A stretch of DNA of 10,209 bases from Planctomycetaceae bacterium TMED10 (lineage in GTDB: Bacteria > Planctomycetota > Planctomycetia > Pirellulales > UBA7805), in contig NHBP01000056.1 in assembly GCA_002168195.1 (NCBI GenBank), forward strand, positions 26,240 to 36,448, in the 5' to 3' direction. Below are positions 2,773-10,209 of this stretch, piece after piece (position 1 is the first letter of the stretch; every line of letters begins with the position of its first letter). Made by a program: the position numbers and the translations under genes. The notes under the pieces were generated by a model. That model saw nothing but the letters and a program-made list of their open reading frames with translations. It searched no databases and was not told the origin of the DNA.

Positions 2773-5130
2773 TTATTTCCCTACCATGCGGAGACGCTCA
2801 GCGTTCCGTGTCATCCGCAATGCCATGATGGGCGTATCGAGTATTCGAAATTCAGGTTTTCCCTCGGTGATCTCGATACGCTGATCCATGGGGACCGAAT
2901 TGAAAGTCTGAGTCACGCCGGTGGTGGGCCAATAGACTTCGATCCGATCAATTTGTGAAGCTTTCCCCAACCCTATCGTCTGACATAAAGGATTTGCCCC
3001 GAAACTCCCACCGCTATTCACGTGTTTGTAGATCGATCTTTTCTCGCCATTCTCTGTGATCACTACGTGAATGCGTGCGCCGATAGCCGAACGGTTGGAC
3101 TCCGTACCGATCAATTTGACCTTCAACCAGTGATTTCCAAAGCCGGGATTCTGAAAAATCGCATCCCGAAAATGATCCCCTTCATATGCTCCGCCCATCT
3201 GTGCGATCACTTCCTGGTCACCGTCGGAATCGAGGTCCGCAAAAGCAATGCCGTGTCCTTTCTGCAAATGACCGAATCCCCCCGGGTAGGTAACATTTTC
3301 AAATGAGGTGCCGTTACAATTTCGAAACATGACATTGGGTATCAGCGCTTCATAGTCCGGATACCCGGTCCCCAGATAAAAGTCGGTGAACCCATCATTG
3401 TCGAGGTCACCGAAATTGCCCCCCATTGGAATCAGCGTGCGCGTGAGGCCTAGATCCTTACTCCTTTCGCGAAATTCGCCCTCGGATGTTCCTTGATATA
3501 ATTTTGGTGATTCGAGCGAGGTTGTTTTTTTCATGAACCCTTGGACAACGGGGCCCAGATTTCCGTACCTAAGACTGTAACTTGGAACATACAAATCGAG
3601 GTTTCCGTCATTATTGAAATCCCAGAACCACACAGGAAAACTCTTGAGAGGGCCGTCCACATTGAATTTACCCGCCACATCCGTGAAGGTGCCGTCTCGA
3701 TTGTTCTGATAGAGTCGGTTCGGACTATCGAAGTTTGAAACATAGAGATCAGGATATCGATCGTTATTAAAATCTCCCCAGGTGACTCCCTTCGCGTAGC
3801 GAAAGTTTTCTACGCCTGCTTCTTTCGCCACATCGGTGAACGTGCCGTCTCCTTCGTTTCGAAAAAGCTGACTGGGAGAGGGAGATTCGGCATAGAAATC
3901 TTTCGAGGTCTTCTCGTAAACTCCCTCGTTTCCAACGAACAAGTCCAGATCTCCATCATTGTCATAATCGGCCCAGCCCGCGGAGTGCGACGGATAATGT
4001 ACCTCCCCGAGTCCTGCGAGAAATGTGATATCCTTGAATCGTCCCCTTCCATCATTTTCCAGCAGTGAGTTCGGGATCGTTCCTTTGCGACCCATCCAAC
4101 CTCCCCGCAACACGTAGACATCAAGGTCACCATCGTTATCGAAATCGGCTTGGACCATGTTGATCCCCCCGAGCAATCCCTGTAACCCTGCCTCTCCACT
4201 TCGATCTTGAAATTCGCCCCCACCCTTATTTTTGTAAAATCGCATCGGCTCTCTTGGGTCCCAGGACGAGGTCAAGATATCGTTCAACCCGTCATTGTCA
4301 AAATCATCCACCACGACTGTGCCGCCGGAATTGAATGCTTTCATACCGGACGCGGCGGCCACATTTTTAAATCGAGGAAATGAATCACCGTTGGCCTGAA
4401 AATTAAAGTCGATTAAATGTTCACGGGGAACCTTGTCCGGGTATTCGCCCAAGGTCATATAGGCAATGTTCATAAGCCATCGAGATCGCTGATCGACACC
4501 ATTCGATTTTTGAAGCGACTTGGAAAAATAGGCAATCGCATTCTCGGCGCCAGCACGATTTGTATGGATTGCAGCAGGTTGAAACGGGATAATGCAACTC
4601 TCGGGAGAGTTTTTCAAACAACAGTTTTCTGTCTCCGCAAGCCGCATGTAGGTTACACCGAGTCGATACAGTACTTCCCGATGCTTAGCTTCCGGGATGT
4701 TATTCCGAGGGTCACTCGCAAGTTTCTCAGCGACCTCAAGGTGCTTGATTGCCTCTCGTTCATTTCCGAGATTTAGCTCGGCAATGCTCAACATGCTATG
4801 CAACCGATAACGCTCGACAGCGATGGCATCCTCAGGCAACCTAGAGAGCGATCTGAGCATTTCGGAACGCGGTGGTGTGAGTGGTAAAAATAGGCGGTCG
4901 GCAGTCGTGACGCCATCGGCCACCTTCGCCAAGATGGCGACCATTTTTTGGTGAGAATCTTCTTGTTTTGACGCGGGTTTGCTGCCCGGCAATTGAGCGA
5001 GAGAAGTCGCTTCTACATTACAACCCGCAAATGTTCCGCACACGCAGAGAACAAAGCCCCAGAGTCGTGTTTGACTCCACCGGAATCTCCCCTGAGAGGT
5101 TACTTCAACAGAAGGTTTTTCGATGGGCAT
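2773..5130 (-). CDS. Exported lipoprotein with TPR-like region, seven VCBS/FG-GAP repeats and C-terminal ASPIC/UnbV domain (CRTAC1-like)
   Basis: Function unknown; predicted surface or periplasmic lipoprotein. From the ATG at 5130 it has 785 residues. A hydrophobic stretch (WGFVLCVCGTFAGC) ends at C37, a loose lipobox (F-A-G-C). Residues about 60-240 are helical and TPR-like and contain NCCLKNSPESCIIPFQ, with C170, C171 and C179, followed by H189. Then come seven calcium-loop motifs of the D-x-D-x-D-G-x-x-D type: 276-284, 329-337, 388-396, 453-461 (DFNNDRYPD, glycine lost), 504-512, 575-583 and 632-640, as expected for a beta-propeller. Residues about 679-757 (AIGARIHVVI to IEITEG) form the ASPIC/UnbV domain. 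The frame extends to another ATG at 5187, adding 19 residues; I prefer 5130 because it gives a shorter positive region before the signal core, but neither start has a Shine-Dalgarno sequence. Stop is TAA; 156 bases separate it from the thioesterase start. Confidence 0.9.
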   Translation of the reverse strand: MPIEKPSVEVTSQGRFRWSQTRLWGFVLCVCGTFAGCNVEATSLAQLPGSKPASKQEDSHQKMVAILAKVADGVTTADRLFLPLTPPRSEMLRSLSRLPEDAIAVERYRLHSMLSIAELNLGNEREAIKHLEVAEKLASDPRNNIPEAKHREVLYRLGVTYMRLAETENCCLKNSPESCIIPFQPAAIHTNRAGAENAIAYFSKSLQKSNGVDQRSRWLMNIAYMTLGEYPDKVPREHLIDFNFQANGDSFPRFKNVAAASGMKAFNSGGTVVVDDFDNDGLNDILTSSWDPREPMRFYKNKGGGEFQDRSGEAGLQGLLGGINMVQADFDNDGDLDVYVLRGGWMGRKGTIPNSLLENDGRGRFKDITFLAGLGEVHYPSHSAGWADYDNDGDLDLFVGNEGVYEKTSKDFYAESPSPSQLFRNEGDGTFTDVAKEAGVENFRYAKGVTWGDFNNDRYPDLYVSNFDSPNRLYQNNRDGTFTDVAGKFNVDGPLKSFPVWFWDFNNDGNLDLYVPSYSLRYGNLGPVVQGFMKKTTSLESPKLYQGTSEGEFRERSKDLGLTRTLIPMGGNFGDLDNDGFTDFYLGTGYPDYEALIPNVMFRNCNGTSFENVTYPGGFGHLQKGHGIAFADLDSDGDQEVIAQMGGAYEGDHFRDAIFQNPGFGNHWLKVKLIGTESNRSAIGARIHVVITENGEKRSIYKHVNSGGSFGANPLCQTIGLGKASQIDRIEVYWPTTGVTQTFNSVPMDQRIEITEGKPEFRILDTPIMALRMTRNAERLRMVGK

Positions 5131-5231
5131 CGGTACCGCGCGCGGACCGGGAGAAGAGATGCTGAAAAGGAGGAGTCGCGGGGCCATGCAATTGCAGACG
5201 TAATGAGTTCAAACGCTGTGAAGTGAGCGTC

Positions 5232-5526: not shown

Positions 5527-7590
5527 TTATCGAGAGGCAGGCGTTCGAAAAGGCTTGTCGGATTGGTAGAGTTTCAGTCGATCCGCTAGTGGTGGTCTGG
5601 CACTCTCCGGAGCCTGCTCAATCGCCTTGAGTTGCCACTCCACGGCCTTCTCGTATTGCGTCGTCTCTGCATATGCGGCAGCCAGCGTATCCAACACAAA
5701 AAAATTGTCATTTGCAAACAAAGACGCCGCTTTGTTTGCATTCGCGAGTGCTTGTTTTCCATTTCTGAATTCCGGGTCAGGGCAGGTAGCCTGAAGCCAA
5801 GCCAGATTGTTATAGGCTTGGGCATCTTTTCCATTCAAGGCGATTGCGCGATGAAAGTCTTCTGCGGCCAGCTTGAATTTCCCTAACGTTTCATAACTGG
5901 TACCACGCCGATTGAATACAGGAAAAAAGTTTGGGGCCAGTTCGACTACGCGTGTAAAATCTTCAACCGCCTTACTGGTTTTTCCGAGGGCACTTAAAGC
6001 AATGCCTCGGCCGAAGAACAGTTTGGGATTTTCCGACTGTAATGAGATGGATTTATTGAAGTGCTTGACAGCATCCTTCATGCGATTCTGTTTAAGAAAG
6101 AGTTCTGCCATTGCCACCTGAGCGGGCGGGTAATCTGGTTCGGTCCGGAGTACTTCTTCTAGTTGTTTTAGGGCAGTTACGTTTTGCCCTGTTTGCATTA
6201 GCGCGGAAGCAAACTCCGTTCGAACGCCTGCAGAGTCGGGCCAAATATCGACAACATGGTTTAGCTGATTCGCCGCATATCGTTTTTGGCCTAAACGTTG
6301 AAAGAAGTCGGAAAACTTTCGATGTTTTAAGGCTTCCATTCCATTGAGCGCGGCTTGTGCCGCATCATCATCGAGTGTGCGGCCCGCAAGAATTGCTGCA
6401 CGTTGATACCGGTCGACCGGTGAATCAATCGGGGTAGTTAGGTCTTTTAGCACCTCCTCGACCGACACTGGGCCCTTGTAGATCGTAATTAAACGACCTT
6501 TTCCATCGATAAGAAAACTGGTTGGTAACGGCAGCGGCCTGCGCACTGGCGTCTGCAAGTCGTGTATCGATTGTAATAAATTAATCAGCGGGAGACTGGC
6601 ACGACCTGTAGGAAATGGAAAGCCCATTGTTTTAATTTGTTGTGCGGCATCCTCGTAGGTTGATCGTTCGTCGTTTAAGCCGTCAACGGATAAGGCCAAG
6701 ATATCAAGTCCTGCTTTTCCAATTTCATCTCTATTGCGGCTGAAGTCTTGCAATTCTTTCAGGCATGGAAGGCACCAACTTGCCCATAGGTTTACCAGTT
6801 TGGGTTTGCCGTTTGCGATATTAATGGGTTTGGTTGAACCGGCCCAGTTTTTGTAGGCAAGCTTAGGAAATTCCAATGGTGTAATTAATCGCAAGACTGC
6901 CTGATCGGAGTATGGTACCGGGCTTTGTTCCTTTGCAAAAAGTGCTTGGGTTTGCTTACGGTCGTCTACAACCTTTGATTTACCGGACCCCTGATCCAAG
7001 ACTTGGCGAGTGTCTAACTGGACATTATCAAATGTTTCGAGTCCGCCACCTGGCCAATGCACCACAACCCGCGCTATCTTTGTTGCATCGCCGAGGCCAA
7101 AGTGCATCCATTTGCTGTTTTGCGAGAGGAATCCTTCGCCGGCTCGCAAGGTCTTCGCGACAGGGTGCTTTTCGTCGCCGGTCGCATAAACTTCAACTCG
7201 GGCACCGACCGCATCTCGATTGGTCGTGATGCCGTCACCGTGGAGTAGCAGAGAAACGAAGTGGTTTTTTAGTGGTTGATCGTTTCGCATAAAGCGGAGA
7301 CGAGGAGCGGTGCGATTGGATATCCAGAAATCCAGATCACCGTCGTGGTCCCAGTCTCCAAAGGCCAGTCCTCTGCCATCGTCGGGGAAGTCCACCCCAC
7401 TCGCCACTGAGATATTGGCGAATCCTCCATCTCCGGTATTCAGGTAGGCGCAGTTACGTTCATTTCCACTCCAAGACGAACCAGAACGAATCATCTGGAA
7501 TATTTTTGCCCAACCGCGACGATAATCAGGATTATTTTCATCTTCCGCTGTCTCCGGTGATTGCGACACGACCTGTCGCCAAAACAAACT
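5527..7590 (-). CDS. C-terminal portion after the UGA: last VCBS loop, ASPIC/UnbV, TlpA/ResA-like thioredoxin and TPRs
   Basis: Codons after the UGA encode SLFWRQVVSQSP and onward, 687 residues (655-1341 of the whole protein). Residues 733-741 are DWDHDGDLD, the seventh VCBS loop. About 780-855 (RDAVGARVEVYA, RAGEGFLSQNSKWMHFGLG, VVVHWPGGGLETFDNV) is ASPIC/UnbV. A thioredoxin fold of TlpA/ResA type follows: LVNLWASWCLPCLKEL with C927 and C930, and the cis-proline-type segment RPLPLPTSFLIDGKGRL near 1005-1021. From about 1100 to 1250 there are TPR units, ending in the planctomycete-style AYNNLAWLQATCPDPEFRNG and LDTLAAAYAETTQYEKAVEWQLKAI. As an independent gene it would have to start at the TTG at 7587, would lack any signal peptide, and would put a VCBS-ASPIC-thioredoxin protein in the cytoplasm, which argues for joint translation with the upstream half. 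Stop is TAA. Confidence 0.85.
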   Translation of the reverse strand, partial: SLFWRQVVSQSPETAEDENNPDYRRGWAKIFQMIRSGSSWSGNERNCAYLNTGDGGFANISVASGVDFPDDGRGLAFGDWDHDGDLDFWISNRTAPRLRFMRNDQPLKNHFVSLLLHGDGITTNRDAVGARVEVYATGDEKHPVAKTLRAGEGFLSQNSKWMHFGLGDATKIARVVVHWPGGGLETFDNVQLDTRQVLDQGSGKSKVVDDRKQTQALFAKEQSPVPYSDQAVLRLITPLEFPKLAYKNWAGSTKPINIANGKPKLVNLWASWCLPCLKELQDFSRNRDEIGKAGLDILALSVDGLNDERSTYEDAAQQIKTMGFPFPTGRASLPLINLLQSIHDLQTPVRRPLPLPTSFLIDGKGRLITIYKGPVSVEEVLKDLTTPIDSPVDRYQRAAILAGRTLDDDAAQAALNGMEALKHRKFSDFFQRLGQKRYAANQLNHVVDIWPDSAGVRTEFASALMQTGQNVTALKQLEEVLRTEPDYPPAQVAMAELFLKQNRMKDAVKHFNKSISLQSENPKLFFGRGIALSALGKTSKAVEDFTRVVELAPNFFPVFNRRGTSYETLGKFKLAAEDFHRAIALNGKDAQAYNNLAWLQATCPDPEFRNGKQALANANKAASLFANDNFFVLDTLAAAYAETTQYEKAVEWQLKAIEQAPESARPPLADRLKLYQSDKPFRTPASR

Positions 7591-9552
7591 TCACAAATCA
7601 CCAGATTGGTCACCGGTCAAGAAACCATTTGCTACCAGCAGGTCATCCCAACCGTCGTTATTAATATCCGCGAACATGGAGGCCCAGGCCCAGCGCCCGA
7701 ATTCGATGCCTGAATCGGCACTCGTTTTATCGAATCCTCCTTGTTGTGTATTTTTAAGCAGTGTGTTTCCGCGAGCCATGCTTTGCATGCGCTGTTTTAC
7801 ATTGGTGTCAGCATCTTGCATAAATTTCGGTTGAAAGGCGATCCGCCCTCCTGCGGAAGACCACATGTTGCTCACATGGATGTCAAACCAACCATCTCGA
7901 TCATAATCACCCCAAGTGATACCCATTCCGCTTGCCGCATCCTCCGCTCCGGCTTGACTACTCACGTCAACAAAATGTCCTTCGTCATTACGATATAGAT
8001 TGTCTCGACCGAAATCATTTGCGACGTAAAGGTCTTGATCTCCATCGTTGTCATAATCCTCCCAGGACACAGCAAAACTGAAACGGTTGTTATTGATATT
8101 GAGGCCGACATTCTCAGTAACATCCTCAAATTCCCAGCCTTTTTCCTGGATGTTGTTCTGGAATAACGCATTTTGTCCACCATTATTCCCGTCGTGATAA
8201 ACGCGAGGTTGTTGGGGGATCGGCGCTCCTGTCTCACCTCTCCACTGGGTTAAAAAAGCAGTTGCATAAATATCTAAGTCCCCATCATTGTCATAATCGG
8301 CAGCCGCCAAAGACATGAGATGCTTGTCTGATGGAATGATTGTACGCACTTTGAATCGTTGGCCATCTTCATTCGAGGCGACGATAATTCCACCGTGGAA
8401 AGCAACCAGAAGATCCTGGTCGCCATCGTTATCGATATCTACAAAGAGCGGGCTCCTTGAATCTTCTAACCAGTCGACTCCCCATCGATCAGAGACATCT
8501 TCAGCCGACCCATCGTTTTGATGTAAAAAAAGCCGATTTGGCAATCCTTGTTCTTGACAGACATAGAGATCGTCGAGCCCATCGCCGTTAATATCGCCAA
8601 GGGCTATTCCAGGGGTTCCGAGGTTATCTGTAATCAGGTATCGCATTTGCTGACTCGCGGAAAGCCAATACATGTACCCACGAAGAAACTGTTCTTGATA
8701 ACAAACGTTCTTATCTAATATTGATTCTGTGCAGTCAGAAAATAGTGTCCCTGAGGGCATCTGCGAACGCACCTGCTCCATACCCATGAGTTTGAGAGAC
8801 GTGAGCACGGGCGCAGTTGGATCTTTATTGTCCCACTCAGCAAGCCAGTCCGTATGCAACTCGAGCGAACCATCGTCAAAGAAACCGGCTATTTCTGCAT
8901 ATTGTCGCGTGGCTACCATCTCCCCGCCTGGTTCCACCCTGAAGATTTTAAATTTTGTCCGGACCTTATTTGCAGTTAAAAATGGCTCCATCAATTCCGA
9001 GAGGGCATCACGGAATCCACGGGCGCCGTTAAAAGAAGTTTCGATTTGCACATGCTTTGTGTTATCTCTATTCCAACGGGTCGCTTCAAGCGTTTTGTCC
9101 TGAAAGAGTGTTTCCATCGATTCAGGAACTAAACCAGAGCAGGTAAAATTTGGAGCAATCAGAGCCTCTAAATTCGCAGAAGAAATCTGCGCAGGATGTT
9201 TGAGGATCTTGCCAAGGCTTGAAAGCTTTTCGCCTGCAAGGTTGTTAAACAGTTCAGTGTTCCATCCATCCTGTGAGGGATCGTCCATCCGCTCAAGTCG
9301 TTCTCTTATTTTCGCTGAATTGCCGGTTGAATTCTGGCGACTTAAGCTTGCATCGGCGTTCGCATTCAGGGTTGGCCCTGGGATTAAAACGGAATCATTT
9401 TTTGTTGCCGAGCTGTCCATGTCATGGCAACCGGACTGAAGAATCATGAGCGGCCACACGATTGCAAAAAACAAACCGAGCGAACGACTCCAGGAACCAA
9501 GCCGAGCGACGCTTCTTTTACGAACAGCGGTGATAGTTGCAATCGGTTTCAT
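5527..9552 (-). CDS. Candidate selenoprotein: VCBS-ASPIC/UnbV-thioredoxin-TPR lipoprotein, 1341 aa, Sec654 encoded by in-frame UGA
   Basis: One continuous reading frame of 1342 codons from the ATG at 9552 to the TAA at 5527, interrupted only by a TGA at codon 654 (7593-7591). The frame, domain order and codon character carry straight through: GDL-[UGA]-SLFWRQVV. The first part has the signal peptide and six VCBS loops but no ASPIC domain; the second starts in mid-module and contains a seventh VCBS loop, the ASPIC/UnbV domain, a CLPC thioredoxin domain and TPRs. A perfect hairpin with a GGUCG loop begins 11 bases after the UGA, as expected for a bacterial SECIS, so I read the UGA as selenocysteine. 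Predicted exported and lipid-anchored, with redox function inferred from the thioredoxin fold. Alternatives: a nonsense mutation or sequence error making a pseudogene, or two polypeptides through re-initiation at the TTG at 7587. The selenocysteine call needs selA, selB, selC and selD in the same genome, which lie outside this window. Confidence 0.68.
7561..7582 (-). promoter_or_regulatory. Candidate bacterial SECIS hairpin
   Basis: In the transcript, GCGACA (7579-7574) pairs perfectly with UGUCGC (7568-7563) around the five-base loop GGUCG (7573-7569). UU (7582-7581) can pair with AA (7562-7561) if G7580 bulges. The loop begins 17 nt after the UGA, inside the window generally described for bacterial SECIS elements, and starts with GG, satisfying the loop-guanine requirement for SelB. 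The E. coli fdhF element, from memory, has loop sequence AGGUCU about 18 nt after its UGA, so both share CAGGUC. The E. coli bulged U has no obvious counterpart. The hairpin lies wholly inside the FWRQVVSQ codons. Confidence 0.6.
7591..7593 (-). other. In-frame UGA codon, proposed selenocysteine (Sec654)
   Basis: The codon TGA (plus-strand tca) lies between TTG (Leu653) and AGT (Ser655) in an otherwise open frame of 1342 codons. It is followed by A. No other real gene in the window contains or ends with TGA: the six genuine stops (847, 865, 2155, 2773, 5527, 9649) are all TAA. General reassignment of UGA to Trp is unlikely because the window's many Trp codons in coding frames are TGG. Confidence 0.6.
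7591..9552 (-). CDS. N-terminal portion up to the UGA: signal peptide, unknown domain and six VCBS/FG-GAP loops
   Basis: This is the 653-residue open frame that a standard annotator would call as a complete gene. It starts with a basic region and hydrophobic core (LGLFFAIVWPLMILQSGC) ending at C42, a probable lipoprotein cysteine although Gln at -3 is unusual. Residues about 80-300 are a mixed alpha/beta region I do not recognise (APNFTCSGLVPESMETLF; KVRTKFKIFRVEPGGEM). Calcium-loop motifs are DINGDGLDD (320-328), DIDNDGDQD (372-380), DYDNDGDLD (419-427), DYDNDGDQD (499-507), DYDRDGWFD (549-557) and DINNDGWDD (629-637). It ends LLVANGFLTGDQSGDL just before the UGA, i.e. directly after a VCBS strand, without the ASPIC domain that normally closes such proteins. 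The ATG at 9552 has no Shine-Dalgarno sequence. Termination at this UGA would yield a truncated propeller protein. Confidence 0.85.
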   Translation of the reverse strand: MKPIATITAVRKRSVARLGSWSRSLGLFFAIVWPLMILQSGCHDMDSSATKNDSVLIPGPTLNANADASLSRQNSTGNSAKIRERLERMDDPSQDGWNTELFNNLAGEKLSSLGKILKHPAQISSANLEALIAPNFTCSGLVPESMETLFQDKTLEATRWNRDNTKHVQIETSFNGARGFRDALSELMEPFLTANKVRTKFKIFRVEPGGEMVATRQYAEIAGFFDDGSLELHTDWLAEWDNKDPTAPVLTSLKLMGMEQVRSQMPSGTLFSDCTESILDKNVCYQEQFLRGYMYWLSASQQMRYLITDNLGTPGIALGDINGDGLDDLYVCQEQGLPNRLFLHQNDGSAEDVSDRWGVDWLEDSRSPLFVDIDNDGDQDLLVAFHGGIIVASNEDGQRFKVRTIIPSDKHLMSLAAADYDNDGDLDIYATAFLTQWRGETGAPIPQQPRVYHDGNNGGQNALFQNNIQEKGWEFEDVTENVGLNINNNRFSFAVSWEDYDNDGDQDLYVANDFGRDNLYRNDEGHFVDVSSQAGAEDAASGMGITWGDYDRDGWFDIHVSNMWSSAGGRIAFQPKFMQDADTNVKQRMQSMARGNTLLKNTQQGGFDKTSADSGIEFGRWAWASMFADINNDGWDDLLVANGFLTGDQSGDL

Positions 9553-9648: not shown

Positions 9649-10209
9649 TTACTTGTCGTTTACGCGATACTTCTTTCCTTGTTTGTAAAGTTGAAGTCTC
9701 TGGCGCAGTGTCGTATTTGAATGTCCCGAATCTAGCGACAACGCTTTTTCCTGCCATTTAACTGCTTTTTTAAAATCGCCCGATTCCGCAGCAGCTGCAG
9801 CAAGCGTATCGAGGCTATCTTTGCTTTTCCAATTCATTAAGTCACAGGCTTTCGTCGCATAGACGGTCGCCTTCTCGCCATCACGATATTCAGGGTCGAT
9901 GCATGTTGCGAGCATCCACGCAAAATTATTGTAGGCTGAGGCACTATTGGGGTTCAACTCGATTGCGGAAGTAAAATCTTTGATCGCTAGGTCATATTTA
10001 CCCGACGCGGCATAGAGGGCCCCTCGATTTGCGAGCGAACTTACATCTTGAGGATCAATTTCCAAGGTCTTTGAAAAGCAGTGTAGCGCGCCAGCAGTAT
10101 TGCCCCGCATCGAAAGCAGTTGCCCCCACTCTCGATAGGCGTCCGCATTCAGTGGATCATAATCAATGACATCTTTAAAATATTTGATTGCTTCGTCATT
10201 ATTTTTTAA
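9649..10209 (-). CDS. TPR protein, C-terminal 186 residues (5' partial); paralogue of the C-terminus of the large selenoprotein candidate
   Basis: The frame is open to the window's last base, reading LKNNDEAIKYFKDVIDYDPLNADAYREW and on, so the ATG at 10110 is internal and the start lies to the right. It holds about four TPR units: residues near 1-34, ALHCFSKTLEIDPQDVSSLANRGALYAASGKYDLAIKDF, AIELNPNSASAYNNFAWMLATCIDPEYRDG, and LDTLAAAAAESGDFKKAVKWQEKAL. The end (AYNNFAWMLATC.DPEYRDG, SLDTLAAA, KAVKWQEKA, RQRLQLYKQGKKYR) aligns without large gaps to the last 100 residues of the large protein (AYNNLAWLQATCPDPEFRNG, VLDTLAAAYAE, KAVEWQLKA, ADRLKLYQSDKPFR). It may therefore be the tail of a second VCBS-thioredoxin-TPR protein, or a plain TPR protein. 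TPRs mediate protein contacts; no catalytic motif is visible in this part. Stop is TAA. Confidence 0.85.
   Translation of the reverse strand, partial: LKNNDEAIKYFKDVIDYDPLNADAYREWGQLLSMRGNTAGALHCFSKTLEIDPQDVSSLANRGALYAASGKYDLAIKDFTSAIELNPNSASAYNNFAWMLATCIDPEYRDGEKATVYATKACDLMNWKSKDSLDTLAAAAAESGDFKKAVKWQEKALSLDSGHSNTTLRQRLQLYKQGKKYRVNDK

Follow-up and report, generated by a model that had tools for sequence, protein, structure and literature searches.

Gene architecture at the locus

The window, here meaning the whole 10,209-nucleotide stretch analysed from Planctomycetaceae bacterium TMED10 (contig NHBP01000056.1), carries on its minus strand a frame of 1341 codons (9552-5527) whose sole interruption in the ORF listing is a TGA at 7593-7591. 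That TGA terminates a first ORF of 653 aa (9552-7591, minus strand), and a second ORF of 686 aa, for which a TTG is the first start, continues in the same phase (7587-5527, minus strand). Translation through the TGA gives a 1341-residue product in which U occurs once, at position 654, with no frameshift, confirming the preliminary description of two same-phase frames with one TGA between them and no indel. From the ORFs, the translation, Pfam and Foldseek, the read-through gene (5527..9552, minus strand) would encode an exported FG-GAP/ASPIC propeller joined to a TlpA/ResA-like thioredoxin domain and TPRs, with the TGA at codon 654 (7591..7593, minus strand) probably read as selenocysteine (Sec).

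In Pfam searches of the read-through protein, FG-GAP_3 matched in five stretches, UnbV_ASPIC at residues 781-849 (7006..7212, minus strand), AhpC-TSA at residues 895-1021 (6490..6870, minus strand), Redoxin at residues 913-1032 and TPRs from about residue 1087, the TPR region extending to about residue 1266 in NCBIfam and Pfam profile searches (5755..6294, minus strand). The AhpC-TSA/TlpA-like domain, recognised also by sequence search and Foldseek, contains W-C-L-P-C with Cys927 and Cys930. The TGA is preceded by the signal sequence and some of the FG-GAP repeats, and followed by further repeats, the UnbV_ASPIC domain, the thioredoxin-type domain and the TPRs, in agreement with the earlier statement that the first half lacks ASPIC. 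The N-terminal signal sequence (9427..9552, minus strand, read by eye from the translation) ends in ILQSGC at Cys42, and QSGC is a possible lipobox, atypical relative to the consensus in having Q at -3. The signal sequence of the earlier account is therefore upheld, and its reading as a lipoprotein is plausible at most.

Downstream on the same strand lies a neighbouring FG-GAP/ASPIC protein of 804 aa that lacks Sec (2773..5187, minus strand, from the ORF listing), and upstream the window ends in the C-terminal TPR tail (9649..10209, minus strand) of the next Sec paralogue (C105:36392-39814, with its TGA outside the window). The neighbours at 1-2670, judged by eye, resemble an AMP-binding CoA ligase, a ketoacyl synthase and a thioesterase.

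Recurrence of the in-frame UGA

The source genome (G000; 3.76 Mb in 117 contigs, 97% complete, 7.4% contamination) contains six long close paralogues of the read-through protein, each with one internal TGA, and five of the six share contig C105 with the window. Ten genomes were compared in the GTDB family; listed matches spanning residue 654 occurred in seven (G000 and G004-G009), and none across this residue was present among the matches listed for G001-G003. By hand count, the 39 closest of the 46 listed spanning matches (37-100% identity) have an internal TGA, 38 of them exactly one and the other two. The remaining seven, distant FG-GAP/ASPIC proteins at 27-31% identity, have no stop at the site; the one inspected, from the source genome itself (C105:74997-76637, 30% identity; L017), covers the site without the whole motif. 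In each of the 24 long loci inspected individually the TGA aligns with that of the window gene, and 22 of these loci fit D-L-U-S-x-[FY]-W-R, the other two having a slightly different motif around the TGA (DLUSFMWRQVV in L051 and DLUSFLWRQVL in L059). The motif stretches of L103, a Planctomycetota record, are identical to those of the same-genus genome G006.

An exact-pattern scan of GTDB contigs returned at least 110 matches in at least 109 stretches in the TGA form, for which conservation of the fixed letters of the motif holds by construction, as the pattern demands it. All 110 listed matches lie in a frame that reads through the UGA, some frames being cut by the end of the stretch, such as that of L114 with 10 codons before the UGA; in L170 just 64 codons precede it. 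The in-frame UGA is conserved in homologues with the frame kept on both sides. The TGA form was found by motif scans in Verrucomicrobiota, Planctomycetota and Acidobacteriota, and the named records among the 109 Sec sequences used for the tree described below were from Verrucomicrobiota (54), Planctomycetota (18), Acidobacteriota (11), Myxococcota (1) and Pseudomonadota (1), with 24 having no name.

Among 294 genomes of the phylum, the TGA motif was present in 21 and a reversed control motif in none. Sense-codon patterns (VNN and TGY) gave zero matches in the same 294 genomes, a result that leaves room for sense forms, as the motif is narrow and TCN, TAY and TTN codons fall outside these patterns. 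Of 140 motif matches in 50 genomes chosen for holding the TGA form, 139 had TGA (hand count) and one had GAA; the two genome sets overlap, with G306 and G327 of the 50 sharing match coordinates with G126 and G080 of the 294. The sole sense-codon copy among the 140 encodes Glu (G326:C600:3486-3517; L187). The most copies seen, twelve TGA motifs, were in a planctomycete genome of 9.2 Mb (G312; locus L077). A variant Sec motif, D-F-U-T-x-[FY]-W-R-Q-V, was observed in G155:C204 and G298:C249, in some cases with GTT for GTC after CAG.

A conserved hairpin downstream of the UGA

On the 3' side of the UGA lies a SECIS-like hairpin, GCGACA-GGUCG-UGUCGC (7563..7579, minus strand), identified by comparison and folding, in which bases 14-19 pair with bases 25-30 around a loop at 20-24 (T of TGA = 0). 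Its conservation was assessed in 127 loci, obtained from 132 TGA loci (L051 and L059 not among them) of which 129 were distinct and 127 had 66 clean bases. The scan pattern had left third bases and codons +1 and +9 free, and at these positions codon choice was strongly restricted relative to elsewhere in the same genes: Ser+1 is AGY in 125/125 (34% elsewhere), Val+7 is GTC in 115/127 (37%), Val+8 is GTG in 122/127 (33%) and Ser+9 is TCG in 98/100 (21%). The 6-bp stem is fully paired in 110 of the 127 loci, compared with a mean of 92.7 and a maximum of 99 when 3' arms were redealt among loci (2000 shuffles), counts that are not probabilities since the sequences are related to each other. Compensatory stem variants include GCGACA/UGUCGC, GCGGCA/UGCCGC, GCGCCA/UGGCGC and GAGGCA/UGCCUC, and the folding excess over synonymous shuffles averaged 2.6 kcal/mol at the site versus 0.2-0.8 kcal/mol at five control offsets. 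As judged from these alignments, the choice among synonymous codons and the compensatory changes in the stem keep the hairpin fixed.

The loop is GGUCG in 113 of the 127 loci and may resemble the loop of E. coli fdhF. An Rfam search around the UGA gave nothing meaningful, and the 48 nt from the window, folded in isolation, were no more stable than shuffled sequences (z 0.10). The stem-loop that the preliminary description placed after the UGA is therefore real and comparatively supported, while being unremarkable in the window's sequence alone. Published limits for bacterial SECIS elements (bSECIS) include a loop of 3-9 nt, a stem of 4-16 bp, a G in loop place 1 or 2, a distance of 16-37 nt from the UGA and a minimum free energy of at most -7.5 kcal/mol (PMC13188914). 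The window hairpin lies within these limits as given there, with a loop of 5, a stem of 6, GG at the start of the loop (G in place 2 being forced by the scan pattern), 17 nt from UGA to loop and -7.9 kcal/mol. Across loci, 68 of the 127 bare hairpins reach -7.5 kcal/mol and 59 are weaker.

Selenocysteine machinery

A search of the source genome for selA, selB, selC and selD, as proposed in the preliminary description, recovered all but the first. SelB was present at 361 bits, over cut-off, and tRNA-Sec at 68.6 bits in Rfam, an assignment that ARAGORN corroborated (anticodon tca); two further Rfam matches exceeded the cut-off in the tRNA search and were tRNA-Leu and tRNA-Ser. SelD (348 bits) is of the Sec type with its own in-frame TGA in SCAGUAGK, and the SelD of this genome (G000:C26:38779-39702; L037) is thus itself a selenoprotein. 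Neither of two models recovered SelA in this assembly, and none was found in G006 or G002; SelA was strong in 6 of the 9 family relatives (G001, G004, G005, G007, G008 and G009) and weak in G003. In G005, which is 99% complete and 1% contaminated, TGA copies and SelA occur together, lessening the concern over contamination of the source assembly. Across the 294 phylum genomes, strong SelA matches (E < 1e-30, hand count, with 18 weaker matches scored as absent) were found in 20 of the 21 TGA genomes versus 172 of the 273 others (Fisher p 0.0016).

Homologues without UGA and the residue at position 654

A search of 5.8 billion proteins gave 7993 scored candidates, of which 5447 match residues 480-870. 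In 121 aligned rows, some weakly aligned, residue 654 was Ser (32), Asp (22), Glu (11), Cys (10, one being the query itself written with C), Ala (9), Asn (8) or others. A stricter set of 93 sense-codon homologues had mostly Ser, Asp, Glu, Asn and Ala, with Cys in a minority of 9; one single-frame homologue of 1450 aa (P0002) has Cys at this position at 55% identity over residues 480-870. The preliminary description had proposed examining this residue in relatives, with unrelated residues to count against Sec: close relatives do have TGA and some database homologues Cys, but sense-codon residues are mostly not Cys, which that description had in part foreseen as unfavourable. The rarity of Cys among sense-codon homologues indicates that redox chemistry at the site is not universal.

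In a tree of 202 sequences (109 Sec and 93 others, from FastTree only, with short sequences and those below 40% identity dropped), at least 13 changes between Sec and non-Sec states were required, indicating that Sec was lost or gained many times. Cys701 (7450..7452, minus strand) is a candidate redox partner of Sec654 on account of its frequency among homologues, being present in 67% of the 109 Sec, 56% of the 9 Cys and 11% of the 84 other homologues. The association was not significant in a tree-corrected test and Cys701 is missing in a third of the Sec proteins. Cys701 as an obligatory partner was rejected, and its pairing with Sec654 is regarded as suggestive only.

Split database entries

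The expectation that automated pipelines would split the gene in two was borne out, as each of the best 120 among 7914 passing matches to the first half stops with the residue that precedes the UGA. This search admitted lengths up to 1.75 x 653 aa (1142 aa), so that whole proteins could not appear in it. In the whole-protein search, which admitted lengths to about 2347 aa, nothing listed was closer than 55% identity, and the halves reach 98%. Where given, the names on half-length matches were 'VCBS repeat-containing protein', 'FG-GAP repeat domain-containing protein' or 'hypothetical protein', and one at 83% identity (P0128) and several others were named Pirellulales.

Predicted structure and relation to known families

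Residues 300-1045 were modelled by AlphaFold2 from 45 sequences with a pLDDT of 88 and a pTM of 0.88, and Sec654, modelled as Cys (model residue 355), is predicted to be the first residue of helix 355-361. Ser, Asp, Asn and Gly cap helices, which fits many of the replacements seen at 654, with Glu and Ala fitting less well. Foldseek returned CRTAC1 (9etn) as the best match (E 4.4e-26, TM 0.70 by target length), followed by TlpA and ResA, and sequence search agrees for both the FG-GAP/ASPIC part and the TlpA/ResA part. The function of CRTAC1-type propellers is obscure. The protein has FG-GAP repeats followed by UnbV_ASPIC and a propeller fold, as in the ASPIC-UnbV FG-GAP propellers and murine CRTAC1 (PDB 9etn), which it resembles in fold and in FG-GAP/ASPIC sequence; the solved CRTAC1 chain differs in matching the propeller/ASPIC part only and not the thioredoxin and TPR parts. 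Residues of about 872-1037 resemble TlpA (1jfu) and ResA (1st9) in fold, sequence and the WCxxC motif, but here form a domain towards the C terminus of a large propeller protein and score far under the NCBIfam family cut-offs. Among 111 Sec proteins whose chain continues for at least 330 aa past Sec, 104 have a motif [WF]-[ACST]-x-x-C at 180-420 residues from it, a count taken with no chance control, and 7 are without the motif. Sec654 may have a catalytic redox role.

No NCBIfam family exceeded its cut-off among the best 25 of 28 for the whole protein and the best 25 of 31 for the second half, and none matched the first half; no named selenoprotein family there passed its curated cut-off, NF041054 (WAxxUGC_long) reaching 20.9 bits against a cut-off of 300. 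Table 1 of a 2026 inventory of 119 prokaryotic selenoprotein families, which includes families credited to Haft and colleagues, contains no FG-GAP/VCBS/ASPIC propeller family (PMC13188914, Table 1). The open-licence PMC literature yielded nothing relevant joining selenium with FG-GAP, VCBS, ASPIC, UnbV or CRTAC1 and no Sec-bearing CRTAC1 / ASPIC-UnbV member. Within that literature and that table, the earlier statements that no VCBS or ASPIC/UnbV selenoprotein family is known and that the present one is undescribed both hold. The family resembles bacterial selenoprotein families in its in-frame UGA, its downstream hairpin within bSECIS limits and its Sec machinery (PMC13188914), as well as in some Cys homologues and a fused thioredoxin fold. 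It differs in that Sec is replaced mostly by Ser, Asp, Glu, Asn or Ala rather than Cys, and the window protein has neither UxxC nor CxxU at the site.

Interpretation and alternative explanations

Taken together, these observations indicate that the large, probably exported protein is very probably a single selenium-containing protein of a widespread, apparently undescribed family. The earlier reading of the UGA as Sec is supported by selB, tRNA-Sec and selD, by TGA in close relatives and by the conserved hairpin, whereas the mostly non-Cys residues of sense-codon homologues and the failure to find selA in this assembly run counter to it or go beyond it. Insertion of Sec at position 654 appears highly likely on this sequence evidence. 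That the gene encodes one exported selenoprotein is only slightly less secure, and the following mechanism is proposed for it. SelB-GTP-Sec-tRNA would bind the hairpin and place Sec at 654, with some ribosomes presumably stopping at the UGA and releasing the 653-residue half. As the first residue of a helix in the predicted CRTAC1-like propeller, a position that should lower the selenol pKa, Sec654 would act as a redox nucleophile outside the cytoplasm. A selenenylsulfide with Cys701 could form where that residue is present, and the fused TlpA/ResA-like WCxxC domain would re-reduce Sec654; candidate substrates are a peroxide, disulfide or sulfoxide. Such a redox function, in which the fused thioredoxin serves as reductant, is proposed tentatively, at somewhat less than even probability.

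An ordinary stop, with either two separate genes or a pseudogene whose second part begins at the TTG at 7587, would account for the splitting of the gene by gene callers and for first-half matches that end at the UGA, and a TTG start is indeed available while TGA serves as the stop of ordinary frames elsewhere on the contig. This explanation is nevertheless highly improbable, as the 39 closest listed family matches share this TGA, loci from several phyla have it with the frame open before and after, base pairing dictates the codons used downstream, single-frame sense-codon homologues exist, and a pseudogene would not keep the TGA in six paralogues. Sequencing error or a pseudogene was likewise rejected in view of the TGA in those 39 matches. 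Suppression, or a local change of the code, by which the UGA would be read as an amino acid other than Sec, is similarly improbable. In its favour, relatives show many different residues at the site and the source assembly yielded no selA; against it, tRNA-Sec, SelB and a Sec-containing SelD are present, the hairpin falls within bacterial SECIS limits and strong SelA accompanies the motif in all but one of the 21 TGA genomes of the phylum sample. TGA also terminates other frames nearby, and a change of genetic code was rejected on that ground.

A more substantial alternative, though still an unlikely one, is that Sec is inserted but is not catalytic, serving as a helix cap or as a switch by which selenium decides whether the short or the long form is made. 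The capping-type residues (Ser, Asp, Asn, Gly) of sense-codon homologues, in which Cys is seldom found, are compatible with this, as is the fact that the short half would be a whole exported N-terminal piece; the retention of the recoding signal across phyla in up to 12 copies per genome, and the thioredoxin-type motif carried in the same chain by 104 of the 111 longer Sec proteins, argue instead for catalysis. It is conceivable, at odds a little below even, that Sec-propeller redox enzymes form a widespread and overlooked selenoprotein class in Planctomycetota, Verrucomicrobiota and Acidobacteriota, with as many as 12 copies in a genome, Sec as the first residue of a helix, recharging by an in-chain TlpA-like domain and public entries consisting of halves cut at the UGA. 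If so, a widespread multi-copy family would have a fold not listed among the known prokaryotic selenoproteins of PMC13188914 (Table 1), common environmental phyla would be expected to use more selenium, large proteins would be systematically misannotated in databases as short VCBS-repeat proteins with the second half lost, and CRTAC1-type propellers would gain a testable redox site.

Genomic neighbourhood

Non-Sec FG-GAP genes adjoin the window gene and recur elsewhere on its contig. Among TGA loci with enough flank, a same-strand FG-GAP-like frame was found downstream in 3 of 41 and upstream in 5 of 47, compared with 0 of 24 background loci. Given the rarity of such neighbours, the idea that the gene sits in a fixed operon together with an FG-GAP gene lacking Sec was rejected. 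Five Sec paralogues lie on this one 89.6 kb contig (G000 contig C105:14000-89599; L213-L216), which also holds non-Sec FG-GAP/ASPIC genes, a TPR-sulfotransferase, a phosphodiesterase-TPR protein, a PQQ-type propeller and a cytochrome c-like protein.
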